64,000 nt of DNA from an uncultured Blastocatellia bacterium (lineage in GTDB: Bacteria; Acidobacteriota; Blastocatellia; Chloracidobacteriales; Chloracidobacteriaceae): assembly GCA_937934745.1 (NCBI GenBank), contig CALGZC010000028.1:1-64000 (forward strand). Direction: 5' to 3'. A program made the position numbers and the translations under genes. Of the stretch, positions 8,051-45,716 are shown one piece after another. The notes under the pieces are model-generated. The model ran no database searches and was not told the DNA's origin. It saw only the letters and a list, made by a program, of their open reading frames with translations. How positions within the stretch are numbered: the first letter of the stretch is position 1; every line of letters starts with the position of its first letter.

Positions 8051-8229
8051 GTTGGTTGCAGGGTGGATACTGCGGTGTCTAACCTGAATTTTCGCCGACA
8101 ACGTTCACGGGCCGATGTTCCCCGGCCCTGGTTACGTGATGCTGGTTGTGTGAGTGCGGCAGACACCGCCGCGCTCGATGTCCTGTACTCTCTGCCTCTA
8201 CTCTCTGCTCGATTGGGAGCGTCCCGCCT

Positions 8230-9792
8230 ATGCTGCTGTCACAGGAAGTCGAAACTCTTGCCCAGAGCGCCCTGCGCGCCGGACTCACGCTGAACGTCAA
8301 ACGCGATGTCGACACAAGCAATGCGTTCTGGGGCGCATTATTTACCTTTGGCTGTCTGCCCGATGTACAGGTGGTCATTAACGGACCGGTGGGATGCTAC
8401 ACGCTGCCGATTACTTCGATCCTCAACTACACTGACACCATTCCGAATCTGCCGAACGTCATCTCAACCGACTTTACGGAACGCGAAGTCACGCTTGACG
8501 GTACAAACCCCATCTTGCGCGCAACCCTGGAGGGCCGCTCAACACTCAATGCGCACCGCCGCGCCACAATTGTCCTTACAACGCAGGAAAGTGAACTCAT
8601 CAGTACGGATGGCTTCGAGTCCGGTCTCAGTGTTCATGACGGTATTGCGCAGTTTGATAGCCGTGCACTTCAGGACGACGAATGGCAGGGACGTGAGTCG
8701 GCACTGCTGTACCTGTATGAGAACCGCGAATGGTTACTGGCGGCATCCGGTTATGACGCGGCAGCACTCCGCTCCGCCGTCGTGCGGACAAAACCACGGG
8801 TGACCATCATCGGTCCGACCTACGGCTGCTTCAACAGCTATGCCGATCTCGCCGAAATCGAACGGCTGGTGGAGGGCATTGGGGCCGAGGTCAGTTGCGT
8901 CATGCCATTCCGGTCGCGCGTCAAAGATTTGGCGACTATGGATGACTGCGATGCCTGCATTGTGATGTATCGAGAGTTCGGCGCGGCGCTGGCCGCCCGC
9001 CTGCACAAGCCATATCTTTATGCTCCGTTTGGCATTCAGGATACAACAGCGTTTCTGCGCGAGCTGGGGCGGATCCTCGGTCGGACGGACGAAGCAGAAG
9101 CCTTCATTGCCCGTGAAAAGCAAACCACGCTCAAGGCTTTTTGGGACCTGTGGCGCAGTCCTCACCAGGACTTCTTCGGTACGTCGAGTTTTGGTGTCGT
9201 CGCAGGGGAAACCTACACCCATGGGTTGCGGCGTGTTCTCCAGGACGAGTTCGGTATGCGTCCAACCATCGTCGCTTCCCGACAGGCAAAGTCAGGTCCC
9301 CTTGCCTACAGCGCCATTGATGTTCGACAGACGCTGATTGATGACCCGCCGATGATTATGTTCGGCTCAATCAATGAAAAAATCTACATCAGTGAGTTGG
9401 AGCTGTTGACAAGCTACATTCCGGCGTCCTTTCCAGGGCCGGTTGTTCGCCGGGCAACAGGGACACCGTTTATGGGGTACGCCGGCGTCGTGTATCTGGC
9501 ACAGGAAATCAGCAACTTTCTGTTTGAAATTCTGTTCCGCCACCTGCCGGTGGAAGGACTCGAACGCAAGCAAGCCGAAGAGACCACGCTGGCCATTTCC
9601 GAGGCCGAGATTTCCTGGCATCCTGACGCGGTTGAGCGCATGAATGTCGTTTTGAAGAAAGTCCCGTTCTTCGTGCGCATTTCGGCCAGCAAGAAGCTTC
9701 GCATAGAAGCAGAGCGCGAGGCTGTCCAGCGGCGCATTCGAGAGGTCACGCCGGACATTATTGACGATGTTGCACGTCGCTTCGCCCGGTAA
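8230..9792 (+). CDS. bchZ: Chlorophyllide a reductase subunit Z
   Basis: One half of the NifDK-like catalytic component of chlorophyllide oxidoreductase (BchXYZ), which reduces ring B of chlorophyllide to the bacteriochlorin level. Diagnostic segments are FWGALFTFGCLPDVQVVINGP, VGCYTLPITSILNYTD (with a probable cluster-ligand Cys), IIGPTYGCFNSYADL, VMYREFGAALA, the TLKAFWDLWRSPHQDFFGTSSFG segment, SINEKIYISELE and IPASFPGPVVRRATGTPFMGYAG. ATG 8230 (520 residues) is chosen because GGGAG lies about 11 bases upstream; an in-frame start at 8146 would add an atypical Cys/Arg-rich leader. The partner BchY and iron protein BchX must be encoded elsewhere, which is an unusual separation. Confidence 0.93.
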   Translation: MLLSQEVETLAQSALRAGLTLNVKRDVDTSNAFWGALFTFGCLPDVQVVINGPVGCYTLPITSILNYTDTIPNLPNVISTDFTEREVTLDGTNPILRATLEGRSTLNAHRRATIVLTTQESELISTDGFESGLSVHDGIAQFDSRALQDDEWQGRESALLYLYENREWLLAASGYDAAALRSAVVRTKPRVTIIGPTYGCFNSYADLAEIERLVEGIGAEVSCVMPFRSRVKDLATMDDCDACIVMYREFGAALAARLHKPYLYAPFGIQDTTAFLRELGRILGRTDEAEAFIAREKQTTLKAFWDLWRSPHQDFFGTSSFGVVAGETYTHGLRRVLQDEFGMRPTIVASRQAKSGPLAYSAIDVRQTLIDDPPMIMFGSINEKIYISELELLTSYIPASFPGPVVRRATGTPFMGYAGVVYLAQEISNFLFEILFRHLPVEGLERKQAEETTLAISEAEISWHPDAVERMNVVLKKVPFFVRISASKKLRIEAEREAVQRRIREVTPDIIDDVARRFAR

Positions 9793-25548: not shown

Positions 25549-28266
25549 CTAACGGTCGGGCTCCGGCGTTTGGCGGCGCGGCGTCGCCTGACGCGGAGGC
25601 TCTTCGTGCGGCTCATCTTTGACAAACGACGGTTTCTTAATGTTTGGCTTTGGCAGCGTTGGGAGAGAGCTGTCCTGGTTGCGGGTCTCACGTCCCTGGG
25701 CACGCTTGGCAGACCGTGCCTCATCCACGGCGGTTTGTCCGGCGGATTCCTCCATCAGGGTGTGGTCACGGTGCAGCGTGACCGGCTCGTCTGCTGGCAC
25801 TGCCGGCGGGCGCCCCGTTGCCGCCTGTTTTGCCGATGAGGTCGCCGTATCCGCTATCAAGGCAGCCACATCACTTTCCAGGGTTTTCCGTTCCTGTTGG
25901 TCGCGTTCTGCCTGTAGCTTTTCGAGTTCCGCATCGGGGGCGGGGGCCTTGTCAAACGTCTCCAGCGGCTTCCCACGCAGATAAACCTTCATAAATTCGA
26001 TCCAAATTGGCAGGGCAGCCTGACTGCCGGTCTCACCGCGTCCAAGCGTCCGCTTCTCGCCCGGGTAGCCAATCCAAACGCCACAGGTCAACGACGGGGT
26101 GTAACCGATGAACCAGGCATCCGTCCAATCGTTGACCGTCCCAGTTTTGCCGCCTAGTTGACGCTTATTTAGCTCACCGGCGGTCACAGCACGGATTTTT
26201 GCCGCTGTCCCAGCGTCAACAACGGCGCGCATCATATCCACCATCTGGGCAGCAACATACGCCGAAACAACACGGGTTTCGCGCTCGGTCTCATCGCGAT
26301 CAAAGTCAAAGACCGTCCGACCGTCATAGTCGAGAATCCGGCGGATCAGATGCGGCTTCGCGCGTTTTCCCTGGTTGGGAAACACCGAATAGGCCGACAC
26401 CATTTCAATCAGGGGGACTTCCGTCGCTCCCAGCGCCGACGGCAGATAGGGTGCCATCGGGTTGGTAATGCCGAAACGGCGCACCATTTCGGCACCGCGG
26501 CGAATACCGACGCTGGCCAGCAGGCGTACGGCCGGAATGTTCCGGGATTTGGCCAGGGCCGTCCGCAGTGGAATCAAACCGGTAAACCCACCATCATAGT
26601 TGCGCGGCGACCAATTACCGGATTGGAACGGCGTGTCGGACACCAGATCGTCCGGAGTCCAGCCGTTTTCAATTGCTGCCGCGTAGATAAACGGCTTGAA
26701 GCAAGAGCCGGTCTGCCGGTTCGCCTGCGTGGCATTGTTGAACTTCGACTGCGAAAAATCATAGCCACCGACAAGGACTTTAATTTCACCGGTTTGGGCG
26801 TTCAGACACAGCATCGCCCCGGCGACGGCCGGCATCTGACATAGCTCGACTTGCAGGATACCGTCACTGCCGGCCGTCGCCGGGGCCGGATGACTTTCAC
26901 GACGTCCCTTACGGACAGTCGGCGCGGGTGGGGCAGGAAGCCCAACATCTCCGACAACCGGCATGAGGGCATCGTCGCGAGGGGCGCCGCCCTTGATCAG
27001 GAACATCGGGAGGTCGCCCTCGCGCAGCGGCTGGGTGGGTGGGAAGGTCACCGTTGCGCGGTACTTCCCAAACGACACTTCGGCCGTTCGACCGACAACG
27101 CGCGTCACCAAGCCGTGGAGGTACATACCGTTGAACGGTTCGTAAGCCCACTCTGGATGGCGGTAAGTGGACAGCTCCTTGCCCTTCAGTTCTTCCAGAA
27201 CATTGTGGATGGGAGCATCGCGCCGCAGGCCGCCGTGCCGCTCTTCATACCGGTGTAACCCCCACCGCACAGCGTTGACTGCCTGAATCTGCGCAGGTGC
27301 ATCAATGGTTGTAATCACCTGCAAACCGCCGCTGTGCGTCCCGCGCGTCCCGAAGCGACTTTCCAGCTCGCGGCGCACTTCTTCGACAATGTAGGCAAAC
27401 GGGCCGCTGGTGTTGAGTTCACGCGCCGACGTGACGTTCAACTTAAGATCGGTTGCTTTGGCGGCTTCGGCCTCGGCCGGGGTGATGTACCCTGCTTCGA
27501 GCATGTTCGTAATCACCAGGTTTCGCCGCCGCTTTGCCTCCTGAGGCCTGAGAATCGGCGAGTACCCAGAGGGCGCTTTGGGAATGGCGGCCAGCAGGGC
27601 GCACTCCTCAATTGTGCAGTCCTTGACCGACTTGCCGAAGTAGTACTGCGCGCCGGCCTCAACGCCGTACGCGCCGCCGCCCAGATTGATTTGGTTGCAG
27701 TACAGCTCCATGATTTGCTCTTTGCTGTACTGGCGTTCAATTTGCAGCGCAAGGATGGCCTCTCGCAGCTTGCGTTCCAGGGTTCGCTCCGGGGACAAGA
27801 ACAAGATTTTCGCCAACTGCTGGGTCAGGGTTGAGCCGCCCTCGACGGTACGGCCGGCCAGGAAGTTTTTCCAGGCGGCGCGCGCCAGCCCGATTGGATC
27901 GATGCCCCAGTGGTGCTCAAAGCGGGCATCCTCGATTGCCATGATTGCCTGCCGCATGCGTAGGGGGATTTCCTCATACGTGAGCGGTACGCGACGCTCA
28001 AGGGCGAATTCGCCGATCACAGTCCGTCCATCCTCGGCGTACACGCGCGTCACCACACTGGGCTGAAAATCAGCCAGCGCCGCCACTTGGCGCTGATCGT
28101 CGGTGGTGGCAAACCACTGCAAAAACAGCCACATTGTCAGCGAGCCGACAGCCGCCGCTCCCAACAACGCCGGCGGAAGAAGCAGCAACCGGCGGCGCCA
28201 ATCCACCTGTTGACCAGGAGCGGCCGGGGCTTCATCAGGGTGAGACGAGCTGAGCATGTCTGACAT
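25549..28266 (-). CDS. Bifunctional penicillin-binding protein, PBP1A-like
   Basis: A 905-residue peptidoglycan synthase. A short cytosolic tail is followed by a membrane helix (LLLLPPALLGAAAVGSLTMWLFL), the GT51 domain (AIEDARFEHHWG, EGGSTLTQQLAK), an OB-like/ODD insertion between the domains (about 365-480), and the transpeptidase with SCFK (TGSCFKPFIYAA), SRN and KTG (LGGKTGTVND). The last 120 residues are charged and low-complexity, probably disordered. The start is the ATG at 28266 (or 28257). The first gene of an apparent two-gene unit with ftsY; the selenocysteine tRNA lies upstream on the same strand. Confidence 0.93.
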   Translation of the reverse strand: MSDMLSSSHPDEAPAAPGQQVDWRRRLLLLPPALLGAAAVGSLTMWLFLQWFATTDDQRQVAALADFQPSVVTRVYAEDGRTVIGEFALERRVPLTYEEIPLRMRQAIMAIEDARFEHHWGIDPIGLARAAWKNFLAGRTVEGGSTLTQQLAKILFLSPERTLERKLREAILALQIERQYSKEQIMELYCNQINLGGGAYGVEAGAQYYFGKSVKDCTIEECALLAAIPKAPSGYSPILRPQEAKRRRNLVITNMLEAGYITPAEAEAAKATDLKLNVTSARELNTSGPFAYIVEEVRRELESRFGTRGTHSGGLQVITTIDAPAQIQAVNAVRWGLHRYEERHGGLRRDAPIHNVLEELKGKELSTYRHPEWAYEPFNGMYLHGLVTRVVGRTAEVSFGKYRATVTFPPTQPLREGDLPMFLIKGGAPRDDALMPVVGDVGLPAPPAPTVRKGRRESHPAPATAGSDGILQVELCQMPAVAGAMLCLNAQTGEIKVLVGGYDFSQSKFNNATQANRQTGSCFKPFIYAAAIENGWTPDDLVSDTPFQSGNWSPRNYDGGFTGLIPLRTALAKSRNIPAVRLLASVGIRRGAEMVRRFGITNPMAPYLPSALGATEVPLIEMVSAYSVFPNQGKRAKPHLIRRILDYDGRTVFDFDRDETERETRVVSAYVAAQMVDMMRAVVDAGTAAKIRAVTAGELNKRQLGGKTGTVNDWTDAWFIGYTPSLTCGVWIGYPGEKRTLGRGETGSQAALPIWIEFMKVYLRGKPLETFDKAPAPDAELEKLQAERDQQERKTLESDVAALIADTATSSAKQAATGRPPAVPADEPVTLHRDHTLMEESAGQTAVDEARSAKRAQGRETRNQDSSLPTLPKPNIKKPSFVKDEPHEEPPRQATPRRQTPEPDR

Positions 28267-28370
28267 AGCGTGGCTTTCGTTCCTCAGGATTTAGCAAGCG
28301 CAACCCGAAGTGGATTATTCGCCGACCGACCGTGTTGTGCAATCCGCACCGGACGGAGCCCAGATGCCGG

Positions 28371-28465
28371 CGAAGGCGTGTGGGAGTTGAACCCACCCGT
28401 CCGTATCTTCATACGGACGCACCGGATTTGAAGTCCGTGACGGCCACCCGACCGCATGCGCCTCC
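28371..28465 (-). tRNA. selC: tRNA-Sec (anticodon UCA)
   Basis: The minus strand folds into a selenocysteine tRNA. An 8-base acceptor arm starts GGAGGCGC at 28465 and pairs with ACGCCTTC (one G-U, one C-A), with discriminator G as in E. coli selC. The D-stem is CGGTC/GGCCG. The anticodon loop CTTCAAA carries UCA. A very long variable arm has a perfect 9-base-pair stem (CGTCCGTAT / ATACGGACG, loop GAAG). The T-arm is GTGGG-TTCAACT-CCCAC, giving an 8+5 helix as known for bacterial tRNA-Sec. CCA is not encoded. It implies that UGA is recoded to selenocysteine in some genes; selA, selB and selD are not in the window. Confidence 0.93.
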
Positions 28466-28574: not shown

Positions 28575-29696
28575 CTACAACAGCTTAGCGGCGACAATCC
28601 CGCGCTCGGTGGCGGCGACGGCCCACCCGGCGACCAGATGGAGCGCCGAAAAAATCCGCTCCGCTGCCAACTGCCACCGTGCGACAATCCGCCCGTCCAC
28701 GCTGTTGACAACGGTAATTTCGTGATCGTCAAGTGCCGCCACCGCAACGGTGTTCTCCGTCAAACGCACGGGTGGTGCCGTCAACCGCCCGGCCATTTGT
28801 TGTCGCCAGAGCATTTCGCCGGTGCGTCCGGCAAAAGCATACAGAAAGTTATCATACGAAGCGACAAGTATCCGCCCGTGGTCAATCAGCGGCGGCGCGG
28901 CAACCGTCCCACCGGTGCGCCGTCGCCACCGGATGCGCCCGTCAGCGCGGCGGATGGCCACCACTTCACCGTGCGCCGTGCCACAGTACACGCGCTCGGT
29001 ATCACCCACGGCCGGCCCCGGTGGTGCGCCTACGACGCATACCCACTGCCGTTCGCCATTCGCTGTGCGCAGCCGCCACAGGGTGCCGGACGTTGTCCCG
29101 ACCAACACACCATCGCCGTCGCCAGTGAGGTGAGCGGTAAAGTCACCAGTTACGCGCCAGATGACAGAGCCATCGGATGGCGCAAATGCGGCTAGGGCTG
29201 TCGTCCCAAATCGTGCGTATAACCGCGCACCGTCGCCGACCAAGGGCGAGGTAATCGGGGACGGCAGCGCCACTTCGCACCGGGCAACACCGGTTGCAGC
29301 ATCAAGCAGGCGTATAACGCCGGTCACCCCTACCCCATCGGCTGCCGGGCGCATCGCGCAGGCAACGAGCTGGTCACCCAGTCGGTACAGCGTACCCGTC
29401 GTCGCTACACCGGGCGCGGTTTCCCACAAACGAGAACCGTCATGCCGCGCCAGGGCGACGACTCTCCCACTGCGCAGCGGAACATAGACCGTCGTTTCCG
29501 TCACCAGCGGCTCTTGTCGCGCACCATCTGGGTCTAGGTAGAGCCATTCGGTCGGCAGGGTGACCGGTGGGACGGCAGCGCGGCCGTTCAGGGACGTTCC
29601 CACCCGCAGACGCGGCTGCTGTCGGGCAAGCGCCGTCGCGGCGATGAGCGACACGGGTATCAGGTAGATCAGCCGGCGGCGAGTGTATGTGGTCAT
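28575..29696 (-). CDS. Exported PQQ-like beta-propeller protein
   Basis: A 373-residue protein with a signal or anchor segment (LIYLIPVSLIAATALA, about 9-24) and repeated propeller blades: VVALARHDGSRLWETAPG, LAAFAPSDGSVIWRVTG, VVAIRRADGRIRWRRRTGG, LYAFAGRTGEMLWRQQMAG. Each has the xAxDGxxxW pattern of PQQ/BamB-type repeats. It may act as a scaffold in the periplasm; no PQQ-binding residues can be claimed. Its ATG overlaps the stop of the enoyl-CoA hydratase (ATGA at 29693-29696), indicating an operon. Confidence 0.82.
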   Translation of the reverse strand: MTTYTRRRLIYLIPVSLIAATALARQQPRLRVGTSLNGRAAVPPVTLPTEWLYLDPDGARQEPLVTETTVYVPLRSGRVVALARHDGSRLWETAPGVATTGTLYRLGDQLVACAMRPAADGVGVTGVIRLLDAATGVARCEVALPSPITSPLVGDGARLYARFGTTALAAFAPSDGSVIWRVTGDFTAHLTGDGDGVLVGTTSGTLWRLRTANGERQWVCVVGAPPGPAVGDTERVYCGTAHGEVVAIRRADGRIRWRRRTGGTVAAPPLIDHGRILVASYDNFLYAFAGRTGEMLWRQQMAGRLTAPPVRLTENTVAVAALDDHEITVVNSVDGRIVARWQLAAERIFSALHLVAGWAVAATERGIVAAKLL

Positions 29697-45053: not shown

Positions 45054-45716
45054 ATGGCAATCAACGTAGCAGACGGCGGCATTAAGAACTACCACAACTA
45101 TTTTGTCCCGGAAGATTTCCTTTCCCGTGACCCACGTACCCGTACTATCCGGCTGCGTGATGGACAACGAGGCGTTTATGCTTCAGAAGATTTCATCACA
45201 AGTCTGCATGCCGGGCTGGACGAAGAAGTTGGCGACGCCGCCAATCTGGTTATGTACAAGTGCGGTTATGAGTGGGGCGTCAGTGATATGAAACGCTTCG
45301 CCGAAAAAATGCGCCATGAATTCGGCGGTGGCAAGCTCGACATCTGGCAAATGAACCGCAAATTTGTTCTCGAATCTTGGTGGTGGCCACTCACAACAGA
45401 GGGCTGGGGCGCTTGGGCGATTGACTTCAGTTTTGAAAAACAAGGCATGGTTTTTGTCACGATTAAGAACTCTGCTGTGGCGAAAGCGATGGAACAAGTC
45501 GGCAAGCCAGTTTGCTACATGTACGCTGGGATGTTTGCCGGTGTCTTCAGCGTTTTTGATCGTGAGGAACGAGGTGGTATTGAAGTACAATGTTATTCAA
45601 TGGGTAACGACTGCTGTAAATTCATTGTTGGGTCACAGAAGAAAGTCAATGCAGCCGAGTTCTGGCGACGTGAAGGCGCTTCGGCACAGGAAATCATGGA
45701 AAAGCTGGTTGACTAA
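45054..45716 (+). CDS. V4R-domain protein (BchJ-type fold), first copy
   Basis: A 220-residue soluble protein. The C-terminal half carries the V4R (4-vinyl reductase) signature VCYMYAGMFAGVFSVFD, GIEVQCYSMGNDCCKFIVG with Cys154, Cys180 and Cys187/188. V4R domains bind small hydrophobic or tetrapyrrole-type ligands; BchJ takes part in bacteriochlorophyll synthesis. The N-terminal half has many aromatic residues (ESWWWPLTTEGWGAWAIDFSF). A GAGG ribosome binding site lies 10 bases before the ATG. A second, divergent V4R protein is encoded at 46982-47626. Confidence 0.85.
   Translation: MAINVADGGIKNYHNYFVPEDFLSRDPRTRTIRLRDGQRGVYASEDFITSLHAGLDEEVGDAANLVMYKCGYEWGVSDMKRFAEKMRHEFGGGKLDIWQMNRKFVLESWWWPLTTEGWGAWAIDFSFEKQGMVFVTIKNSAVAKAMEQVGKPVCYMYAGMFAGVFSVFDREERGGIEVQCYSMGNDCCKFIVGSQKKVNAAEFWRREGASAQEIMEKLVD

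Follow-up and report, generated by a model that had tools for sequence, protein, structure and literature searches.

A selenocysteine tRNA gene of Chloracidobacterium, its decoding machinery and a predicted redoxin client

Description

The window analysed here is a 64-kb stretch of bacterial DNA in which a preliminary description placed a complete selenocysteine tRNA (tRNA-Sec) at 28371-28465. Such a gene raises two questions: whether it belongs to a functional selenocysteine (Sec) system, and which proteins that system would serve. Matches to named congeners assign the DNA to the genus Chloracidobacterium. The genome that carries the gene (3.29 Mb, 73 contigs, 99.89% complete) was examined by targeted searches and in selected stretches, together with its relatives, comprising a family sample of 10 genomes (seven of Chloracidobacterium plus three sister genera) and four genomes of the sister family.

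The tRNA-Sec gene

The sole tRNA gene reported by ARAGORN in the window is tRNA-SeC (tca) at 28369-28465 on the minus strand, and the Rfam covariance model RF01852 matches it over its full length (28372-28465, minus; 65.2 bits, E = 5.1e-11), above the gathering threshold of 47 bits. With a cloverleaf fold (z = -3.2 against shuffled sequences), these results bear out the earlier claim of a complete tRNA-Sec with a UCA anticodon, and the fold also yields the 9-base-pair variable stem described before. The coordinates given for the gene run exactly from G1 to G73; its strand, which had been left unstated, is minus. The gene and its parts are as follows.

28371..28465, minus: tRNA-Sec gene (selC), G1 to discriminator G73 (ARAGORN, Rfam, fold and alignment of 14 orthologues)
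28459..28465, minus: 5' strand of the acceptor stem, seven standard pairs with 28372-28378 (fold)
28440..28455, minus: D arm, 6-bp stem and 4-nt loop (fold)
28429..28431, minus: anticodon UCA, which reads UGA (ARAGORN, anticodon position 35)
28398..28419, minus: long variable arm, 9-bp stem and GAAG loop (fold)
28380..28396, minus: T arm, 5-bp stem and loop UUCAACU (fold)

The discriminator G73 lies at 28371, giving the gene both UCA and G73, and is followed by CC at 28370-28369; the gene does not encode the final A of CCA (GCCG). In the fold, the strands of the variable stem are CGUCCGUAU-GAAG-AUACGGACG. The minus-strand neighbours are a BamB-like beta-propeller gene (28575-29696) and a penicillin-binding protein gene (25549-28266). 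A tRNA-Sec gene was found in all 14 genomes of the order that were searched, and in their alignment the stems are conserved with compensation.

The acceptor was previously called an 8-base arm, which holds for its number of positions but not for its pairing, as the fold and the alignment place C8 (28458) opposite A (28379), a C.A mismatch. Seven of the eight pairs are therefore standard, and with a T stem of 5 bp the arrangement is 8/5 in positions. Among the 14 genomes of the order, the alignment shows C.A at this pair in 10, A.A in three others and C-G in a single genome, so that it is mostly mismatched in the order although an 8-bp acceptor has been described as the main determinant for SelB (PMC7609411).

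Compared with bacterial tRNA-Sec of the E. coli 8/5 type (RF01852), the molecule shares the UCA anticodon, the 6-bp D stem with 4-nt loop, the long variable arm, the 13-position acceptor/T arm and G73. It differs in the C.A at the eighth acceptor pair, the 9-bp variable stem and the unencoded 3' A of CCA.

Sec machinery in the same genome

Lack of all sel genes had been named beforehand as the result that would mark the tRNA as a relic. Instead, selA (contig C10, 7720-9114; 505.7 bits, cut-off 268), selB (contig C41, 1633-3504; 341.6 bits, cut-off 242) and selD (contig C1, 11319-12245; 376.6 bits, cut-off 125) are all present above the curated equivalog cut-offs, and SelB has its GTPase domain and C-terminal winged helices. 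The three genes and the tRNA-Sec gene are scattered over four contigs. Within the order, selD is found in 14 of 14 genomes and selA in 13 of 14; the one without a match is a draft of 83% completeness.

By analogy with the established E. coli pathway, SerRS would load tRNA-Sec with serine, SelD would make selenophosphate, SelA would use it to convert Ser to Sec on the tRNA, and SelB would bring Sec-tRNA to UGA codons followed by a SECIS hairpin.

A redoxin gene with an in-frame UGA

In-frame UGA codons flanked on either side by coding potential were sought in the window and in the 18-19 kb surrounding selA, selB and selD each. The scan revealed no recoded UGA in the ORFs of the window and no selenoprotein in any of these stretches; its few hits were rejected as shadow frames or as genes lying side by side. 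Three molybdopterin-oxidoreductase genes of the same genome have no UGA in the matched domain; by sequence reading, one is NuoG-like and two are without Cys/Sec at the expected site. UGA is likewise absent from the thioredoxin-family genes (PF00085) of all seven Chloracidobacterium genomes.

The genome has 16 AhpC/TSA-family matches, and one of these contains an in-frame UGA (contig C55, 54836-55210). Recoded genes had been predicted from the tRNA, and this conserved redoxin, with a SECIS-like hairpin, provides a candidate outside the window:

Contig C55, 54761-55282 (outside the window): full UGA-containing redoxin gene, 174 residues, AhpC/TSA fold

The motif reads YLTRIVDRGFI-U-PF-C-YPRLVELRERY. 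The gene is present in all seven Chloracidobacterium genomes (78-85% protein identity), with the UGA at the same codon in each. Median dN and dS are 0.094 and 1.07 on the 5' side of the UGA and 0.108 and 1.24 on the 3' side; purifying selection is equal on either side of the codon, with dN/dS of about 0.09. A DUF4760 protein is encoded upstream, a zinc-ribbon protein and an RluD-type pseudouridine synthase downstream, and the gene order is the same in a second Chloracidobacterium.

The protein matches PF00578 with 78 bits and the NCBIfam model SelL_rel_redox with 43 bits, below the latter's cut-off of 120. The possibility that U replaces the peroxidatic Cys was rejected, because in the alignment it coincides with the Thr of TxxC in PrxQ and so forms UxxC. 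We infer that the protein is a UxxC thiol/selenol oxidoreductase. Prx-like thiol:disulfide oxidoreductase selenoproteins with pfam00578 and UxxC have been described (PMC9312934); the redoxin has the same PF00578 fold and UxxC site, whereas the Chloracidobacterium subfamily differs from them in an insertion before the motif.

Downstream of the UGA, starting about 15-16 nt after its U, the redoxin gene has the hairpin CGCGACU-GGUCG-AGUUGCG, with GGUCG as the loop. Degenerate codons whose amino acid is invariant vary synonymously in 102 of 118 cases over the gene, yet six of the seven over the hairpin are synonymously invariant (Fisher p = 1.6e-5; test region fixed from an earlier fold of one sequence). 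A run of 20 invariant nucleotides, the longest in the gene ahead of one of 8, begins 15 nt past the U of UGA. Such synonymous-site constraint is as would be expected of a bacterial SECIS; the free energy of the hairpin is unexceptional (z -0.2 to -1.1). The fdhF-type SECIS of E. coli has a GGU loop, like the redoxin hairpin, and hairpin loops with a GU core occur in most Sec redoxins and in the Sec-SelD genes of relatives.

Interpretation

The locus is very probably the one selC gene belonging to a standard bacterial Sec system that functions; the tRNA-Sec gene is real and almost certainly working. Were it instead a relic left after loss of Sec decoding, the C.A mismatch in the acceptor and the lack of recoded UGA in the window genes or near selA, selB and selD would find an explanation; this reading is excluded because selA, selB and selD are intact in the same genome, and conservation of the tRNA with compensated stems in 14 genomes and selection on the UGA-containing redoxin leave it a negligible probability. 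It is also highly improbable that the molecule is merely tRNA-Sec-like and has another role, as a selC-type tRNA-Cys or an allo-tRNA (Mukai et al., cited in PMC7609411) that places Cys or Ser at UGA codons or at other sites. Both kinds resemble tRNA-Sec, and allo-tRNAs have been reported from Acidobacteria (PMC7609411), but the UCA anticodon, G73, the 13-position acceptor/T arm (against the 12-bp arm of allo-tRNA) and the dedicated SelA and SelB alongside speak for tRNA-Sec.

We also infer that Sec is actually inserted at the redoxin UGA. Annotation by translation table 11 would end at this codon, in keeping with a true stop followed by a separate gene or a pseudogene in the downstream half. 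That is scarcely likely given that the UGA occupies the same codon in seven species, that dN/dS is the same on either side, that UGA yields UxxC, the site of a selenoprotein subfamily already known, and that the hairpin is constrained. Since the same bacterium also has the remaining Sec machinery and at least one gene for a Sec redox protein, the tRNA-Sec itself is ordinary. As in the E. coli SelA/SelB/SelD/selC pathway, all four components are present and a hairpin lies shortly 3' of the UGA; unlike there, the genes are on four contigs and the client found is a redoxin, not a formate dehydrogenase. Mechanism and parts are those of the textbook bacterial Sec system.

Sec use across the family

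In every one of the 10 family genomes SelD carries Cys (KRAGCAAK), and none of their molybdopterin-oxidoreductase (PF00384) genes contains UGA. In contrast, SelD of the sister family has Sec (CGGUASK) in all four genomes, with hairpins of GGU/AGU loop after the Sec codon, and in two of the four a molybdopterin-oxidoreductase gene also contains UGA. Each of the 10 family genomes encodes at least one AhpC/TSA-type redoxin whose gene contains UGA. In Chloracidobacterium this is the UPFC protein; the three other genera have TlpA-like proteins with WASW-U-GPC (WASWUGPCRAEFPH), whose genes share a nearly identical SECIS-like hairpin (GUGCGGAGUUUCCGCAC), and one of these genera additionally has an FYRGYW-U-PWC protein. 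A sample of 118 genomes from across the class yielded many more Sec-redoxins, with UPFC, UPYC, UPWC or related sites, and a short hairpin lies 3' of the UGA in most of them.

According to Zhang et al. (2006; PMC1794560), all selenoprotein-containing bacteria known at the time had Sec-FdhA or Sec-SelD, which they proposed to maintain the Sec trait. Neither is seen in the 10 family genomes, with their Cys-SelD and UGA-free PF00384 genes, and on these gene predictions the family does not fit the 2006 generalisation (PMC1794560), to which later surveys may already list exceptions. Sec-redoxins appear to sustain the trait in the family, on an incomplete selenoproteome that covers redoxins, SelD, PF00384 and the thioredoxins of the genus. 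We lean towards the view that the family keeps Sec decoding without Sec-formate dehydrogenase or Sec-SelD, and that what sustains it is a set of thioredoxin-fold Sec proteins that is not the same in all genera. If true, this would overturn the FdhA/SelD requirement proposed for trait retention. The contrast between the families, Sec-SelD (plus UGA-containing molybdopterin oxidoreductase in two genomes) against Cys-SelD with Sec-redoxins, lends itself to a clean test of the factors that make a lineage retain Sec decoding.

No treatment of the selenoproteins or tRNA-Sec of Chloracidobacterium was found in the open-access literature searched. With these results a phototrophic genus of acidobacteria joins those that have a complete Sec system, and a client gene, which standard annotation would cut short at the UGA, is identified in it. 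Family-wide Sec retention, apparently for redoxins as far as the incomplete selenoproteome goes, is a supported and mildly new observation.

The host had also been described as a probable phototrophic acidobacterium, in line with the Chloracidobacterium congener matches and with a BchB-type protein encoded in the window, which supports phototrophy directly:

8146..9792, plus: BchB-like light-independent protochlorophyllide reductase subunit (PF00148, 135 bits; PF08369 PCP_red, 37 bits)

A V4R-domain protein is encoded at 45054-45716 of the window; the V4R domain also occurs in bacteriochlorophyll-biosynthesis proteins.
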